This document shows, in pieces, positions 9,570 to 44,781 of a DNA stretch of 50,713 nt (positions within the stretch are counted from its first letter, which is position 1; the number at the start of each line of letters is the position of its first letter). The notes below the pieces were generated by a model that saw only the letters and a program-made list of their open reading frames with translations, ran no database searches and was not told where the DNA came from. The position numbers and the translations under genes were made by a program. The stretch is from Eubacterium sp. (GTDB taxonomy: Bacteria > Bacillota > Clostridia > Lachnospirales > Lachnospiraceae): contig JAFOIV010000089.1 in assembly GCA_017420535.1 (NCBI GenBank), positions 1-50,713 on the forward strand, read 5' to 3'.

Positions 9570-9613
9570 CAGACCGGGTATGTACCGCCAATACATATCC
9601 GGTCATCTTTTTA
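9570..9613. terminator. Bidirectional terminator
   Basis: The arms GACCGGGTATGTA and TACATATCCGGTC close on a short loop, and TCTTTTTATT follows on the plus strand. It separates the plus-strand 77-aa gene from the convergent minus-strand membrane protein gene. Confidence 0.85.
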
Positions 9614-9616
9614 TTA

Positions 9617-10168
9617 TCAGATGCTCATCTTATTCTTAAAACGAGACTTTAAGAATGCTAAAAACTTCTCATCGAGATCAAGGATATATACACATTTCTT
9701 CTTTCCATGATCTGCATATACTGCATAGTATTCTACTTCAGGATCTCCCTCTGTGCAGTCAACCTTAATGAGATCAGCCTTGATCTGAAGATCGTTTATA
9801 ACAGATGGATCGTTAGCCTTTTTAATGGCCTGTACTTCTTCTGACTTAATAGTTGAGATAACTTTTCTTTTTTCCTTGGCAAAAATCTTTGCTATTTCAA
9901 TGTCGCCACCAATGTAGATATATTCGAATTCTACCTTTAATCTCTTGGCAAGATAAAAGATAATGATAAATCCTGCTATAACGATTGGAAATAAAAGCGG
10001 ATAAAGGAATACAGTTGCATAAACTCCCACAAGTGTTATCAGCATTACTATTGCAAGTATAAAATACTGTGAATTAGCAGGCTTTCCCTTTACTGCTCTC
10101 TCACAATACTGCTGTTCGCCTACATGGAAAACTGGCTTGTTGTCGATTCCGTTCTCTTGCATTTCCAT
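9617..10168 (-). CDS. Two-helix membrane protein, DUF6106-like
   Basis: A 183-residue protein with two adjacent membrane segments (about 34-55 and 57-74). A soluble C-terminal domain of about 105 residues ends in the basic stretch KSRFKNKM. The layout resembles the uncharacterised DUF6106 proteins of Clostridia (from memory). The ATG overlaps the ispF stop codon as TAATG, so translation is coupled to ispF. No function can be assigned; the coupling may simply reflect a housekeeping operon. Confidence 0.7.
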   Translation of the reverse strand: MEMQENGIDNKPVFHVGEQQYCERAVKGKPANSQYFILAIVMLITLVGVYATVFLYPLLFPIVIAGFIIIFYLAKRLKVEFEYIYIGGDIEIAKIFAKEKRKVISTIKSEEVQAIKKANDPSVINDLQIKADLIKVDCTEGDPEVEYYAVYADHGKKKCVYILDLDEKFLAFLKSRFKNKMSI

Positions 10169-13440: not shown

Positions 13441-14556
13441 TTATAAAGTTATTCCTTTATCATCAGATTTGTCTGAAGAAGCAGCTGGTGCCTTATCATA
13501 CTTTGTTGAAAGTCCTTCAAGAGTTCCATCATCAAATTTCTTAAGCGGCTCTTTTAAGATCTTCTCAAGTCTTTCATCTTCTTCCTTCTGAATCTTCTTT
13601 TTCTTTTCCCACCAGTTTTTACCAATAAGCACTACTACAATACCGCCTGCTACAACGATAAGTGTTATTGAAACCTTATGTTTATTTGATTTCATAACTG
13701 TCTGGGCTTTGCTCTCAGCCATTATCCTGTTTCCGGCAGCTGAAAGACCATATCCAAAAGTCTTAGCCAAATCGTCCTCGCTCCATCTTGAAAGGATATT
13801 TGACTCAATAACTTCAAATGACTCAGCGTCAACTATCTCACCTGTTGCATTTCCTGCTGCTGTATAGAAAGCCTGCTCATTTCCCACATATACAAAGAGA
13901 AGATTACCACCACAGTCTCCGAAAAGATCATCATAAACTTTCTCTTCATAATTGTTGAAACCTTCATATTCTGACTTGGCAGGATAATCATCTACAACAT
14001 AGATAAATGGATAAACACCTGTGTCATTGTAGAACTCTGAAAAACCTGATATAAGATATCTCTCATTTCCTTTATCTATATAAACCTCGCCCTGATATGG
14101 CTTACTTTCATCAAGATAATAACCTTTGCTGGAATCAACAGGTCCGGTATATTTTGTTCTTCCAAGCCCCTGCTTAGAATTATAGCTCTTTCCATTTCCC
14201 TTGGTGCCTCCAAAGGATGCAATAAGAATAAAGATTATAAAAAATAATGCAACTGAAGTAAGACATCCGCCACATCCTGCTGAAGATCCGCCTCTACGTC
14301 TTGATCCACCATAATAAGCAGGTCCCCCGTAATAACCATATGGTCTTCTTGATCCTCTGCTGGATGGTCTGTAATTACTGTAGCTTCTTCCACTGCTGAA
14401 GCTGCTGCCGCCTATACTTCTATGACTTGAACTATGACTGCTGGATCTAAAACTTGATCCTCCAAATGAATGACTTCCTCCAGAGCTTCTGCCTCCTCCG
14501 AATGAATGTGAAGATGATGAATGGCCACCTCCACCACCGCCTATTGAACGTCCCAT
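13441..14556 (-). CDS. TPM-domain-like membrane protein with Gly/Ser/His-rich N-terminus
   Basis: A 371-residue protein. Residues 1-90 are low complexity (Gly, Ser, His, then Arg/Tyr: GGGGGGHSSSSHSFGGG). A hydrophobic segment (about 98-117) leads to an extracytoplasmic domain at about 150-290. That domain resembles a divergent TPM fold (FSEFYNDTGVYPFIYVVDD, GNLLFVYVG). A second membrane helix (about 297-312) and a charged cytoplasmic tail follow. TPM proteins act in photosystem repair or as membrane-associated factors elsewhere; the role here is unknown. Most TPM proteins carry such a Gly/Ser tail at the C-terminus, so the N-terminal position is odd. It is the last gene of the long operon, 23 bases after the DUF308 gene. 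Confidence 0.65.
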   Translation of the reverse strand: MGRSIGGGGGGHSSSSHSFGGGRSSGGSHSFGGSSFRSSSHSSSHRSIGGSSFSSGRSYSNYRPSSRGSRRPYGYYGGPAYYGGSRRRGGSSAGCGGCLTSVALFFIIFILIASFGGTKGNGKSYNSKQGLGRTKYTGPVDSSKGYYLDESKPYQGEVYIDKGNERYLISGFSEFYNDTGVYPFIYVVDDYPAKSEYEGFNNYEEKVYDDLFGDCGGNLLFVYVGNEQAFYTAAGNATGEIVDAESFEVIESNILSRWSEDDLAKTFGYGLSAAGNRIMAESKAQTVMKSNKHKVSITLIVVAGGIVVVLIGKNWWEKKKKIQKEEDERLEKILKEPLKKFDDGTLEGLSTKYDKAPAASSDKSDDKGITL

Positions 14557-37133: not shown

Positions 37134-37895
37134 TCATATACGATTTCTGACCACTTCTACAGAAGGAAAATCTTCATTGTCTTTTCTTATTCTGTCGCAT
37201 ATCAAATCTATCTCGTCTTTAAATTCCTCTTCTTCTTTTCCCACTTTTGCCATATACATACAAAAATCATTATTGGTTTTTATAATGATCAGATTAAAAA
37301 ATGGCCCCAGTTCCTTTGCTTCAATAGCATTGCTTTTTTTCTTTACAACGCGGATCATTTTTATCTCTTCATATTTGATAGCTTTAACGCCACCGTCAAA
37401 CCCAACAAGAATCTCTGGTGCAAGTATCATCTCTGTTTTTGGAAGGAACACTGACTCATCTGAATTTGCCTGCTCATCGATGGCTAACTGGGAATAATGA
37501 GAAATGCCACATTCTGGATAAACTATCTTTACGATATCTTCTTTTCCGCCACAACCATAATAACCAATCAACAATACGATAATCCCTGTAATTCCAAACA
37601 TCAGTCCCAAAGGGTGATCATTACATAAAATATCAATCCAGACCCTTTTACTTTTTACGGGAAGCACCCTAAAATCTCTCCAGGTTTTAATTATTGACAT
37701 CAAAAATAATCCTAACGGAACCAGCCCCCAAGCAAAATCCTTTAGAAACCTCACTAAGCGTTTTTTTACCTTTTCCCGTAAGAAGAAATTTCTATACGGC
37801 TGAAAAAAGTAACTTAGCATCATTATCATGTTTTTTCCCCATAAAGTTTTTTTTCGTAACAGAGACATAATAATGAATCTAATGAAATAATGCAA
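37134..37895 (-). CDS. Membrane protein of unknown function
   Basis: A 253-residue protein with a basic N-terminal region and two membrane helices (about 52-68 and 95-113). A soluble C-terminal domain of about 130 residues is rich in charged residues and beta-strand patterns (AIKYEEIKMIRVVKKKSN, LIIIKTNNDFCMYMAK), which recall a PH-like domain. I do not recognise a named family. The true start is uncertain: several ATGs lie in the first 30 codons and none has a strong ribosome site. It is a single gene with its own terminator and lies next to a gene-poor region. Confidence 0.6.
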   Translation of the reverse strand: MHYFIRFIIMSLLRKKTLWGKNMIMMLSYFFQPYRNFFLREKVKKRLVRFLKDFAWGLVPLGLFLMSIIKTWRDFRVLPVKSKRVWIDILCNDHPLGLMFGITGIIVLLIGYYGCGGKEDIVKIVYPECGISHYSQLAIDEQANSDESVFLPKTEMILAPEILVGFDGGVKAIKYEEIKMIRVVKKKSNAIEAKELGPFFNLIIIKTNNDFCMYMAKVGKEEEEFKDEIDLICDRIRKDNEDFPSVEVVRNRI

Positions 37896-38421: not shown

Positions 38422-38560
38422 ATCAGTGTTCGGCATAAATACTGAGGTTCTGGGAGGTGGTGTATATTACGTGTGTATTACGATTGACCTTTATTTCAGA
38501 TTTATATCTATTATTTTGATCTTATGAAACCGGCTCTACCCATCTTGTAAATCTTATCAT

Positions 38561-38726: not shown

Positions 38727-40187
38727 TTATCTAAGACTATACGTATGCGTATTGTCATACTTATTGCCATTAAGTTTTATTACATCCAACTCTATTAGCT
38801 TATTAATCTTATTATTTACAGTCCTCTTAGTCTTTTGAATCAGATTGGCTAACTCCTCAGCTTTTACCTCTTTTCTTGTACTTATGAATATAAGCATTTT
38901 CTGCTCGTCAGAATCAAGCTGGTTCCAGATTTCTTCTCCTATCTCATCACGGGCACTTTCCTTCTGCCTTGTGCTTCTCATCATAATATTATTCTTTAGT
39001 ATGAGTTTTACACCCTGTTTACCTGGTTCAGTATAAATGGGTGCATCTAGGAAAAACTCTGCCATATCAGAGTATATACGCTTAACTCCTTCGTTTAACT
39101 CTCTCACATGTTCAAAATCGGTCATTACACGAGCAATTCTTGGATTTCTAGAAAAACTTGTAGTTCTTATATTATCTACCGTGACTATATTGGGCAGTTT
39201 TCCTGGGCTGTCTATTTCTAAACGATCATCAAACATAGCAACCTTAATATACTTACCTTCCATACCATATTCACGATGTGCAACTGCATTAACTATGCCC
39301 TCTAACCAAGCAAATTCTGGATATTCTGGAATAACAGAAAATCTACCAGTATTCGGATCAAGAGCATTAAATTCCCTAAGCTGATCTTTAATAAATTCTT
39401 TGGCTTTCCCTATCAATTTCAAAATAGGTTCTTCGAAAGATTTATCCTTCACAACATTCATTTCGGTACCAACTTTTTCTTCAGTACCCATATAGCGAAG
39501 AAATCGAACACGACAATTAGGATAAAATTGTGCTACATTTTCAGCAAATAGTAGTATAGCAGCATTAGTCAGATAGTCCTTTCCATTCTTTCTCTTCATA
39601 AGACCACGCCCACGTAAAATCTGTGCTGTATCAACACCAACTGCTCCAATTCTACTTTTATACTCTTCAATAAGCTCTTTATCTAAATCATCAATCTCCG
39701 CATCCTCATTAATTTCATCCTCATAGTGTCTGGAACCTTTTTCATATTCAAGAAGCTTAATATCTTCCCCTCTTAGCTCTCTCGTTTTATCGCCTATTCT
39801 TAGCCAGACAGTATCATTTGTCATATAGATAACTCTATCAACACTCGGAAAAATATGTAGCAGCAGAATACGATCCTTTTCACCCTTATAATTTATTACA
39901 TCAAGAAATTCTTCCTTATACGCCGGCATCGGACGACAATAATCCTTAACAAGATTAAGAAAGAGATTAAGTTTCTCATCGTCACATGAATTAATGCCCT
40001 CAACTTTCATAGTTTTATCACTAATTCCTATAATTAATGTTCCTCCTTCAGCATTTGCAAAAGCAGGAATCCAAGGAGCTATATCAGATGGTTTTACCTT
40101 TACAGACTTCCTGTCAAAGAATTTATTTTCTTTTTTAGTTGTCATATATTCCAATGTAAGCATTGGATTAATTACAGATTTAATCAT
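38727..40187 (-). CDS. Schlafen-like AlbA/ATPase protein with winged helix
   Basis: A protein of about 486 residues. The N-terminal AlbA_2 (Schlafen AlbA, formerly AAA_4) domain covers about 15-135 (SDIAPWIPAFANAEGGTLII, then GISDKTMKVEGI). The middle domain at about 300-385 is the HATPase-like part found in this family (GIVNAVAHREYG, RLEIDSPGKLP, RNPRIARVM). A winged helix ends it (KAEELANLIQKTKRTVNNKI). Such proteins are often called ATP-binding or RecG-like and frequently occur in defence neighbourhoods. The ATG at 40187 has GGAG upstream; a GTG at 40202 is an alternative. It follows the primase-helicase gene after about 100 bases. After the TAA the same frame continues as ISWVFRGYFAAVSWVGW through the 11-bp array, so the stop may have cut off a former tail. 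Confidence 0.85.
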   Translation of the reverse strand: MIKSVINPMLTLEYMTTKKENKFFDRKSVKVKPSDIAPWIPAFANAEGGTLIIGISDKTMKVEGINSCDDEKLNLFLNLVKDYCRPMPAYKEEFLDVINYKGEKDRILLLHIFPSVDRVIYMTNDTVWLRIGDKTRELRGEDIKLLEYEKGSRHYEDEINEDAEIDDLDKELIEEYKSRIGAVGVDTAQILRGRGLMKRKNGKDYLTNAAILLFAENVAQFYPNCRVRFLRYMGTEEKVGTEMNVVKDKSFEEPILKLIGKAKEFIKDQLREFNALDPNTGRFSVIPEYPEFAWLEGIVNAVAHREYGMEGKYIKVAMFDDRLEIDSPGKLPNIVTVDNIRTTSFSRNPRIARVMTDFEHVRELNEGVKRIYSDMAEFFLDAPIYTEPGKQGVKLILKNNIMMRSTRQKESARDEIGEEIWNQLDSDEQKMLIFISTRKEVKAEELANLIQKTKRTVNNKINKLIELDVIKLNGNKYDNTHTYSLR

Positions 40188-40291
40188 ATTTTTATACTCC
40201 ACGGTATATAAATAAATATCACTAACAACAAGTAATCTTTGTTGAGTTTACCATATAAACAATAAACTGTCATTGGACTAATGGTATAAAC

Positions 40292-43243
40292 TTATTTTCT
40301 CTTCTTCAACGCTATCTCCAGCAGTTCAGAAGCAACCTTCTCTGAATGTATCCTCATCAGATTATCCCAGACGTCATCACGTCCTAGAAGATTCATACCA
40401 CCATGCCATATAAGATCATTATCTATAACTGCAAAATGTTCCTCCACCTCATCCAAGGTTATTACATCTATTCCGCTTGAAATCATAGTATTAACCATGC
40501 TATGACAAAACTCTGTACTACCATGCCTTATTTCGTCTGGATTTGTTGTTATAACCGTAATTCTCACACCCGCTTCCTGGCGTTTAGAAATAAGATTTAA
40601 GAATCGATCTATCTTGTTTATTTGTATATCTGGGCTGGATATGATAATTCTACTATTAGCCTCTACTAAATCTCTTTCAAATGTATCCATATAATTATCG
40701 GATGAATATATTGCGTTTGCTGTCTGCTTAGTTGATATCATATCTGTAATAACAGTAAATCCAACATTTCTATATGTTCTAAGACGTTTTGAATACATTT
40801 TCTCAAACATGCCAATATGTGAATCTATATAATCATAAACCTGTACTTCTTTCTTTCCTGGATAATCGCGATTAAGGCGTCCCAGATATTGTTCTAATCT
40901 ACCATCAAAAGAAACCGGCGCTGCAAGCATAAGCGTATCCAGCCTTGGGAAATCAAAGCCTTCACCTATTTTTTGACCTGTTGCAATCAAAATAAGTGAA
41001 TTATCATTCGATAATTGTTGTAATTCTTTACGTATAGAACTATTTTCCTTATCTGTATTATCACCATACATCAAATACACTTTATCAGCATCAGTCTTAA
41101 GATTATCATATAAATATTTCGCATGTTCTTTGAAACGTGTAAGAATAACCGGGGTTCGGCCTTCCTTTACTGCAAAACGCGTATCATCTATGATCATATC
41201 ATTTCTGTCGTTATCACCACTGATAAGCTTATACAATGGAGTCGGATCATTTTTATCTTCATATATTCGGACTGTTCTTGTAAATCTTGGATAAACAATA
41301 TGTGGTATTCCTTGTTTTTCAACCCTTTCAAGTGCCGAATAAGAATGACGTATCGGACCTATAAGCATGAAAATCTCTTTATCCAACTGATCACTTCTTT
41401 TAGGCGTAGCTGTAAATCCATAAACATATCTTGCATTGATATTCTGCATCACATTCATACCTGTACTGGACGCTACATGGTGACACTCATCCATAATTAC
41501 AAGGCCATACTTTTTCATCATACTATGGTAGTTTCCCTTAGCATATAAGGATCCTACCATTGCCACATCAATTATTCCTGTTAACGTATCCTTTCCTGAC
41601 GATAATCTTCCTATTACGCTGTCTCTTCTTTTTATCCTGCCAGTTTTTGTTTTATATATCGGAGGTTCTTCATCTATTTCCAGAAATTTCTGAAGAGATT
41701 CCACCCACTGTTCCAACAAATCCTTACTCTGAAGAATAATTAACGTATTCACCTTTCTTTTGGCAATGATATAGCTTGATACAACAGTCTTACCAAATGC
41801 AGTTGCAGCACTAAGTACTCCATTGTCAAACGAAAGCATTTTATCAACTGCAATCTGTTGTTCTTCTTTCAACTCTCCATTAAATGAAACCTTTATAGGA
41901 ATTCCCTTTTCTCTTTCATCTATTATTTCAAAAGGAATATCCGCAGTTTTACATTCTGATATTATCTCTTCACGCAGACCTCTTGGAATGTTTATATACC
42001 CTGACGTATCTCTTCCAAGATATATTGCCTGAAACTGATAATAATTTGATTTTCCCATCTTAAGTCTTTTATAAAACTCCGGATTATCAAATGCAGCAAG
42101 GCTTCTTATTTGGTTCTGCAATCTTGGAGCTAGATTAAGAGCATCTACATATATACCATCCGATAAAGTAATATGCATTTTCCCAACTACATCATCTTTT
42201 AGAAATGAATCTCGTTTCTTCCATGGCTTTACTCTTTTTATACTATTGTCAATCATAGCAAAACCTCTACCTTGAGATATTTCTGCCTGCCACTTTTCCA
42301 TATAATACTTAATATCATTCAATGAAAGACGTCTCGATAAATCAAGTAATTCTAACCATTGGTCAGGGTAAGCATTCCAATTAGCATCAACAAATGCACT
42401 ATTACCATTCTTCAAAGCACGACCTTGAAGAGGTAAAGCTATAAGATTCCCAAGACTATTTGCATTATCCTGACAAGGATACATTCTGTCATAATATTTG
42501 AATGTTTTAAGGTTATATGACATCATACCCTTATCAAGAATCATAAAACCAAAATTTCTCGCTATGTTTGCACTTACTGGTTCAGAAAATGAAATCCATA
42601 CATGTGCGCCTCTACCTGAGCGTGACCTTTCAACCAATGGTCTTATTCCGTTTGATTCACATATTTCTCTTAAAGCATTAACCTCATCCTGCCACTCGTT
42701 ATCAGCATTTGCAAAATCAGTCTGTTCTGATCCTTTCTCATGATTATCAAAATCATAAACGATAAATCTGCATGTTCCATCTTCGTAAAGAGGATACACT
42801 CCAATTACATCTGATCCATCTTCTTTATAACCAAACAGATGATTTCTTACATGATAAAGCTCAAGTCTTTTCCAATGTCTATTTTCACAATCATCACATT
42901 TAAATTTACTATTATTCTTCTTTGGACATAACGTATCCTTCCAAAAATTCTCACATTGAGGAAAATATCCTCCGTTCTTTCCTCTCTTTGCAAATACATC
43001 TTCTCTTCCCCAAAACACAGAATAAAAAAGCTTTACCATTTCATCTGTAATCCACCTGGAAACAATCCGTTCTCCCTGATCGGGATCATATTCTGAATGC
43101 TCTTCGATAATACTTTCAAAAACATCTCCCGAAGCAAAAGGAATGTCATTCTTCAATAATATATCTTTTAATTCATTATTTTCTTTTTGTAATTTTCTAA
43201 CCAAATCTCTTAACGAATCCAGATTGTATGATTCAATATTCAC
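40292..43243 (-). CDS. TOTE-type primase, SF2 helicase and PLD-like fusion protein
   Basis: A 983-residue multidomain protein starting at GTG (GAGGG upstream). Residues 1-30 are a short coiled coil. Residues 60-310 match the archaeo-eukaryotic primase domain of TOTE conflict systems, with a zinc knuckle (C97, C106, C116, C119), the catalytic D-x-D in YDFDNHE (164, 166) and the nucleotide motif SGRGAHVW (209-216). Residues 455-800 form a DEAD/DEAH helicase: Walker A ATAFGKT (480-486), DECH (585-588), TATPKRS (611-617) and the motif VI-like EQYLGRLNR. The last 130 residues resemble a phospholipase D-like domain, with EEHFAVIDNDLIWHGG near 934-949. Its catalytic HxK appears as H-F-A, so nuclease activity is doubtful. 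Probable role: nucleotide-dependent nucleic-acid sensing or processing in defence; this is inference. Confidence 0.88.
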   Translation of the reverse strand: MNIESYNLDSLRDLVRKLQKENNELKDILLKNDIPFASGDVFESIIEEHSEYDPDQGERIVSRWITDEMVKLFYSVFWGREDVFAKRGKNGGYFPQCENFWKDTLCPKKNNSKFKCDDCENRHWKRLELYHVRNHLFGYKEDGSDVIGVYPLYEDGTCRFIVYDFDNHEKGSEQTDFANADNEWQDEVNALREICESNGIRPLVERSRSGRGAHVWISFSEPVSANIARNFGFMILDKGMMSYNLKTFKYYDRMYPCQDNANSLGNLIALPLQGRALKNGNSAFVDANWNAYPDQWLELLDLSRRLSLNDIKYYMEKWQAEISQGRGFAMIDNSIKRVKPWKKRDSFLKDDVVGKMHITLSDGIYVDALNLAPRLQNQIRSLAAFDNPEFYKRLKMGKSNYYQFQAIYLGRDTSGYINIPRGLREEIISECKTADIPFEIIDEREKGIPIKVSFNGELKEEQQIAVDKMLSFDNGVLSAATAFGKTVVSSYIIAKRKVNTLIILQSKDLLEQWVESLQKFLEIDEEPPIYKTKTGRIKRRDSVIGRLSSGKDTLTGIIDVAMVGSLYAKGNYHSMMKKYGLVIMDECHHVASSTGMNVMQNINARYVYGFTATPKRSDQLDKEIFMLIGPIRHSYSALERVEKQGIPHIVYPRFTRTVRIYEDKNDPTPLYKLISGDNDRNDMIIDDTRFAVKEGRTPVILTRFKEHAKYLYDNLKTDADKVYLMYGDNTDKENSSIRKELQQLSNDNSLILIATGQKIGEGFDFPRLDTLMLAAPVSFDGRLEQYLGRLNRDYPGKKEVQVYDYIDSHIGMFEKMYSKRLRTYRNVGFTVITDMISTKQTANAIYSSDNYMDTFERDLVEANSRIIISSPDIQINKIDRFLNLISKRQEAGVRITVITTNPDEIRHGSTEFCHSMVNTMISSGIDVITLDEVEEHFAVIDNDLIWHGGMNLLGRDDVWDNLMRIHSEKVASELLEIALKKRK

Positions 43244-43341: not shown

Positions 43342-43378
43342 GAAAAAAATCCCATAAGCACATGGCTTATGGGATTTG
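43342..43378 (-). terminator. Current gdhA terminator
   Basis: The perfect 13-bp stem AAATCCCATAAGC/GCTTATGGGATTT closes on a 5-base loop and a T-run follows on the minus strand. It starts about 30 bases after the gdhA stop and also shields the island from gdhA transcription. Confidence 0.9.

Positions 43379-43406: not shown

Positions 43407-44781
<1,375 letters not shown>

Follow-up and report, generated by a model that had tools for sequence, protein, structure and literature searches.

The Pfam family AEP-TOTE (PF22548) and the longer of the two proteins described here have in common the fusion of a zinc-containing AEP primase to an SF2 helicase; no literature using the name TOTE in this sense was found in our search. 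The closest solved AEP domain is that of PrimPol (PDB 7nqd and 7nqf, profile E about 1e-16), which we take to be the CRISPR-associated PrimPol, CAPP; in TOTE, unlike in CAPP, an XPB-like helicase follows the AEP domain in the same chain. An SF2 helicase and a PLD-type domain also occur together in Mokosh and in BREX-related helicase-PLD proteins (PADLOC MkoC 1e-8, MkoB 1e-6), but TOTE carries an AEP domain and has lost the HKD motif; membership of Mokosh, which takes a helicase, an active PLD and a full-length model match, failed, with partial PADLOC matches only. Defence hotspots are a known idea, and the chromosomal slot described below is shared with Wadjet JetABCD, a MukB-like condensin system which, unlike the cargo of our island, contains neither TOTE nor Schlafen; in genomes G311, G340 and G342 it is accompanied by a right end of the type found in our island.

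Relatives of the shorter, 491-aa protein have been described as well. The portion of PMC12839542 devoted to them presents Schlafen RNases that carry a minimal histidine kinase and a wHTH in the same protein; in at least 1017 taxa they lie close to BREX and BR loci, and they are counted among backup effectors. The domain order given there is the same as in the 491-aa protein, so that this protein belongs to an already known type of accessory effector. It is the neighbourhood that differs, with TOTE next door in the gdhA slot and no BREX gene present among the flanking genes scanned (six window proteins, Pfam). According to the relevant part of PMC5862951, SLFN13 has the acidic triad E205, E210 and D248 and its class comprises tRNA/rRNA endonucleases; in our alignment with SLFN13 (PDB 5yd0), with the residue offset counted by hand, these positions correspond to E25, D30 and D62 of the 491-aa protein, which differs in having Asp as the second acid and in its C-terminal GHKL and wHTH domains. 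Both protein families are already known. As far as the open-licence literature tells, the pairing of TOTE with a Schlafen-type protein and the way RNase genes change behind a TOTE that stays constant are new, and so is the cassette at the gdhA 3' end with its shared right end, gdhA as an integration site lying outside that search.

Layout of the island behind gdhA

The window, that is the whole stretch of 50,713 nucleotides that was analysed, belongs to the genome of a clostridial bacterium and includes an inserted DNA cassette of ~5 kb directly behind gdhA. The features of this region are the following:

43408..44754, minus strand: gdhA, NADP-glutamate dehydrogenase, the chromosomal anchor, outside the island
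43407..43439, minus strand: left border, the 33-bp 3' end of gdhA including its stop codon, attB-like, direct repeat
43347..43377, minus strand: terminator-like hairpin in the interval from gdhA to the TOTE gene, consensus match only
40292..43243, minus strand: TOTE-type protein, 983 aa, with a C4 Zn module (97-119), AEP primase (68-308), SF2 helicase (457-810) and degenerate PLD-like C-terminus (859-976)
38727..40202, minus strand: Schlafen-type protein, 491 aa, with AlbA_2 (25-143), GHKL/HATPase_c_4 (316-396), a winged helix (about 423-490) and the acidic triad E25/D30/D62
38422..38520, minus strand: island right end, ~95 bp, conserved, common to the related loci L114, L115 and L116
38389..38421, minus strand: right border, second copy of the gdhA 3' end (97%), direct repeat
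37134..37895, minus strand: 253-aa ORF just outside the island, without family match (ORF and profile scan)

Both ORFs are found where the original prediction had placed two co-directional genes, on the minus strand and 89 nt apart in the ORF list; between them no RNA family was detected at gathering level, sub-threshold matches only. Judging from the terminator-like hairpin, a match to the consensus only, the island is likely transcribed apart from gdhA, and a promoter scan was uninformative (24 found, 25.4 expected). By ORFs and Pfam, neither of the two island genes is an integrase.

Domains and motifs of the two proteins

A zinc AEP primase of the TOTE family joined to an SF2 helicase had been foreseen, and this was borne out by Pfam, by invariant residues and by fold. 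The 983-aa protein matched AEP-TOTE PF22548 at 2e-72 over residues 68-308 (244 bits against a curated cut-off of 27) and ResIII at 1.5e-19 over residues 457-616, while Helicase_C (4e-4) stayed below its cut-off. The D-x-D/His and zinc-cysteine residues of AEP domains have a catalytic role. When 57 TOTE sequences were aligned, the window's included, D164/D166 and H214 of the AEP domain and the zinc cysteines (Cys 97/106/116/119) were invariant in all 57, as were the Walker A K485, the DExH box D585/E586/H588 and Q785/R789/R792 of motif VI, and the protein bears the features of an SF2 helicase. Its nearest solved relatives by profile are XPB chains and the PrimPol chains 7nqd/7nqf, and the AlphaFold model (pLDDT 84) returned XPB/UvsW as Foldseek matches. 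PADLOC gave the CRISPR-associated PrimPol as best match and none named for TOTE.

The PLD-like C-terminus that had also been proposed holds as a match at the level of the profile (PLDc_2, 3.6e-4, residues 859-976, below its cut-off) and fails at the level of the motif: the canonical HxK(x4)D was kept in 0/57 sequences, the residue at the H place varying and the K place being occupied by His in 44/57 and never by Lys, with D941 kept in 57/57. Because the canonical motif is absent from all 57 sequences, this part of TOTE is probably a structural or binding domain and not a nuclease. An active PLD nuclease, considered as a candidate, was ruled out by this loss.

For the 491-aa protein the predicted combination of AlbA_2, an ATPase-like domain and a winged helix was recovered. 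Pfam matches were obtained for SLFN_AlbA_2 (2.6e-16, 60.7 bits against a cut-off of 25.3) and HATPase_c_4 (3.4e-20); the winged helix was seen in Pfam as a sub-threshold match to HVO_A0114 (17.1 bits), and is backed by winged-helix chains in the PDB and by the AlphaFold model. That model (pLDDT 86) matched 3lmm and SLFN in Foldseek, and the nearest solved relatives by profile are DIP2311 (3lmm) and Schlafens. The AlbA_2 profile and the acidic triad by which a Schlafen RNase is recognized are both present, the second acid being changed from E to D at D30, and from these features the protein is probably an RNA-cutting enzyme. Moreover, E301 and N305 were kept in 24/24 aligned sequences, an ExxxN which we take to be the motif named N-box in GHKL ATPases.

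Cargo exchange at the gdhA 3' end

Of the 61 genus genomes searched, nine contained the right end with its repeat (10 copies, 73-100% identity), and in six of the eight genomes besides the window's it lies downstream of gdhA on the gdhA contig. G330 has a contig break inside TOTE, so that gdhA and the TOTE N-terminus are on one piece, and the TOTE C-terminus is on the other together with AbiD and the right end; G343 has the right end on a 3.4-kb contig without gdhA. Five of the nine genomes contain TOTE, namely the window's, G349, G305, G324 and G330, where G305 corresponds to locus L115, G324 to L116, and G349 was equated with L114 by identical coordinates. TOTE matches in four more genus genomes (G329, G350, G352 and a remnant in G311) belong to other lineages, at 45-52% identity. 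In L115 a direct repeat of 184 bp (99.5%; 9606-9789 and 13977-14160) surrounds the TOTE-PBECR4 island, longer than the 33 bp of the window.

The gene that follows TOTE at gdhA encodes a predicted ribonuclease in 5/5 loci: Schlafen in the window and L114, PBECR4 in L115 and L116 and, across the contig break, AbiD in G330. The Schlafen of L114 has 530 aa and is 17% identical to the 491-aa protein of the window, beside a TOTE that is 97% identical, and the DNA match between both loci stops 26 nt beyond the TOTE stop. PBECR4, identified by Pfam in L115 and as its 83% homologue in L116, adjoins TOTEs 87% and 76% identical to the window's, and AbiD adjoins one 75-77% identical. Nature has thus provided an exchange experiment, with the same site, the same TOTE and a different RNase. 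G324 has an acyltransferase segment, in which an HTH and a GNAT gene were also recognized by eye; this segment is closed by the right end, and TOTE comes next.

The slot holds other cargo as well. Wadjet is found in three of the nine right-end genomes, G311 (JetABCD in PADLOC), G342 (JetC and JetD in PADLOC) and G340, whose Wadjet is 92-97% identical to that of G311. G342 carries a ToxN gene and the Wadjet operon as stacked segments, one right end closing each. G339, a close relative (gdhA protein 99%) without a detectable right end, has Wadjet JetABCD in the slot, with proteins 92-99.6% identical to the PADLOC-scanned set of G311. When its DNA was compared with that of the window, identity was lost at the gdhA stop (43406) and came back at 37562, inside the 253-aa ORF, at 77% and then, from 37137, at 91%; one cargo has been exchanged for another at a single site. 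The locus displays both marks of an integrative island, a direct repeat of the target 3' end and exchange of cargo at the site, and the mobile island of the original prediction is confirmed by the repeats at both ends and by the different content of the same place in G339. Its assignment to conflict or defence is likewise favoured, by a slot common to Wadjet, AbiD and ToxN and by the enrichment of Schlafen genes beside TOTE (see below).

Our preferred reading, to which we give a probability of roughly 0.6, is that the island is a mobile, non-autonomous defence cassette at the gdhA 3' end, in which the TOTE module is constant and a single further gene, encoding a predicted RNase, is exchangeable. 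The 5/5 TOTE loci followed by predicted RNases of three families, together with the end of the window/L114 match 26 nt past the TOTE stop, would also fit a sensor-effector pair in which TOTE senses invading DNA and switches on the adjoining RNase, the effector being exchangeable for that reason. We regard this as quite improbable. A 435-aa AAA_14/DUF4143 gene (PADLOC PDC-S01; loci L217, L220, L285 and L215), 98% identical in G311, G339, G340 and G342, likewise precedes Wadjet, and in G342 the Jet proteins behind this near-identical gene share only 26-31% identity with those of G311; since the Wadjet cargo shows the same pattern, a constant first gene may be a mere effect of where recombination breaks. 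Moreover, two of the partner types come with RNA elements of their own (drum RNA before PBECR4, abiF RNA before AbiD), control of AbiF by RNA is known elsewhere, as set out in the pertinent part of PMC12373285, 74/91 TOTE loci lack a Schlafen within 700 bp, and the partners are common without TOTE.

For the cassette reading, protection against phages and the biochemical steps are what we infer. The cassette would enter by site-specific recombination, duplicating the last 33 bp of gdhA, with a recombinase acting in trans. The XPB/UvsW-like translocase of TOTE could engage unusual or foreign DNA such as forks, bubbles or R-loops, while the zinc-AEP domain may bind or extend 3' ends, for primer or gap synthesis, and the degenerate PLD may be a binding or dimer module. 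The Schlafen RNase would be gated by its GHKL ATPase domain and winged helix and, once released by this ATPase/wHTH part, might cleave tRNA-like RNAs as an abortive-infection output. The two genes are more likely layered, separable modules than one complex.

A broader picture can be offered tentatively, as a possibility to which we assign a low likelihood: the gdhA 3' end would be a docking site at which small non-autonomous defence cassettes (TOTE with an RNase, Wadjet, ToxN), each with the same kind of ~95-bp end and a copy of the gdhA tail as its closing sequence, become inserted, stacked and exchanged for each other through a trans recombinase, TOTE being a constant sensor with plug-in abortive RNases (Schlafen, PBECR4 with drum RNA, AbiD with abiF RNA). 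The gdhA cassette site could be mined for other defence genes.

Neighbours of TOTE across the family

TOTE was matched in 37 of 299 family genomes, in several of which the gene is broken, a state that fits dispensable defence and decaying elements alike. SLFN_AlbA_2 matches lay within 3 kb of TOTE in 10/75 cases (34 TOTE genomes, by eye) against 0.15 expected under random placement, a null that ignores islands. Within 80 loci, Schlafen-type genes made up 12 of the 171 genes lying no more than 700 bp from TOTE (distributed over 11 loci) and 9 of the 867 genes farther away, which served as the control (odds ratio 7.2, p 2e-5); the adjacency of the two families is enriched. In Pfam, the 119 co-directional genes within 700 bp, among which the gdhA-site loci are included, comprised Resolvase (10), HATPase_c_4 (9), Schlafen (7), AbiEii (6), PBECR4 (3), Fic (3), PemK (2) and Zeta (2); the 119 farther control genes comprised two Schlafen, and AbiEii, PBECR4, Fic, PemK and Zeta were absent from the 25 of their 162 families listed. 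Wadjet and type III restriction genes were seen among the farther genes too (PADLOC), therefore the wider TOTE neighbourhoods are rich in defence and the near and far PADLOC tallies separate poorly.

A Schlafen-type gene within 700 bp was found in 17/91 TOTE loci, and on a quick tree of the 91 TOTE proteins this adjacency takes 12 changes, all 12 forced by well-supported branches, compared with a mean of 15.9 for shuffled labels (2/500 shuffles as low as 12). Considering both the enrichment near TOTE and the 12 changes, the association is repeated but short-lived. The partner is upstream or downstream of TOTE depending on the locus, and aligned partners are 16-23% identical to that of the window; in L074 (5372-11672) two different Schlafen-type genes are found, one on each side of TOTE. 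The 491-aa protein was matched in 52/299 family genomes, its closest homologues in these (63% and 54%) being in genomes without a TOTE match at cut-off.

These data bear on the idea, contained in the original prediction, of a dedicated antiviral unit of two genes formed by TOTE and its own Schlafen/HATPase protein. The enriched adjacency (10/75) and the slight clustering of the label on the tree speak for it, but with adjacency in 17/91 loci, 12 changes, partners on either side and such low identity of the aligned ones to the window's we consider it highly unlikely. The exact pairing as one unit does not survive a 97%-identical TOTE with another Schlafen (17%) and further TOTEs with PBECR4 or AbiD, and a fixed pairing was rejected as a candidate on the comparison of the window, L114, L115 and L116 and on the tree.

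The main rival of the defence cassette, unlikely in our judgement, holds that TOTE is a helper of mobile elements, which would synthesize primers, repair forks or open strands when such an element integrates or transposes, the neighbouring toxins being addiction modules. In 10/91 loci a serine recombinase is located within 700 bp of TOTE, and in eight of the loci (L143, L144, L151, L154, L155, L184, L186 and L137) its longest ORF shares about 30-60 nt with the TOTE 3' end, which suggests translational coupling. The relatives on plasmids, six of which were examined out of 611 matching records, are shorter (786-815 aa), align only to about residue 831 and, unlike the window protein, have no homologous PLD-like end; beside them a tyrosine-recombinase triplet occurs in 3/6 plasmids, TniB-TniQ upstream in 1/6 and toxin-antitoxin genes in 2/6. 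Against a helper role, the island of the window contains no recombinase or replication gene, nor was any integrase, recombinase or replication gene present among the 25 of 73 families listed for 66 gdhA-downstream genes of relatives, and the slot alternates with Wadjet. Moreover, the serine-recombinase label needs only three changes on the tree and thus represents few element lineages. Viral relatives were not found either, as a two-pattern scan of viral_contigs returned 69 stretches of which 0 were confirmed.

A phage-borne gene was rejected on that scan and on a tblastn search of phage records, in which 1590 matched the TOTE query and none over >80% of it; the sole phage record with >60% identity is an unannotated faecal contig of 9.7 kb covering 21% of the query. 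The right-end motif had 0 exact matches in viral contigs. With one site, one TOTE and differing RNases, it becomes directly testable if primase-helicases of the TOTE type provide defence by themselves, activate the RNase next to them or are simply in the service of mobile elements.

On the alphaproteobacterial plasmids L286, L289 and L291 a TOTE-type helicase without PLD-like end adjoins three tyrosine-recombinase genes, an arrangement that is presumably RIT-like. In L287 (1787-7265) the gene for a TOTE-type helicase overlaps TniQ within a TniB-TniQ transposition operon.

Two RNA elements were observed beside the alternative partners. In G330 an abiF RNA (RF03085; L218, 2354-2390, plus strand) stands immediately before AbiD, after TOTE. 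Between TOTE and PBECR4 of L115 there is a drum RNA (RF02958; 13055-13159, plus strand; 44.0 bits against a gathering score of 43), and L116 gave no drum RNA match at gathering level. Of 25 drum RNAs (loci L230-L254) in 250 family genomes, 18 are followed on their own strand, after 48-142 nt, by a PBECR4 (PF18813) match, one of the remaining seven being cut by a contig end. The arrangement, an RNA element ahead of a nuclease gene, is like that of the abiF RNA system, a type III-like pairing of RNA and nuclease in the pertinent part of PMC12373285; by its position, drum RNA is probably the RNA partner of the BECR nuclease in a system resembling type III toxin-antitoxins. In the literature searched drum RNA is named solely in PMC7657543, and its adjacency to PBECR4 points to a likely function for it.
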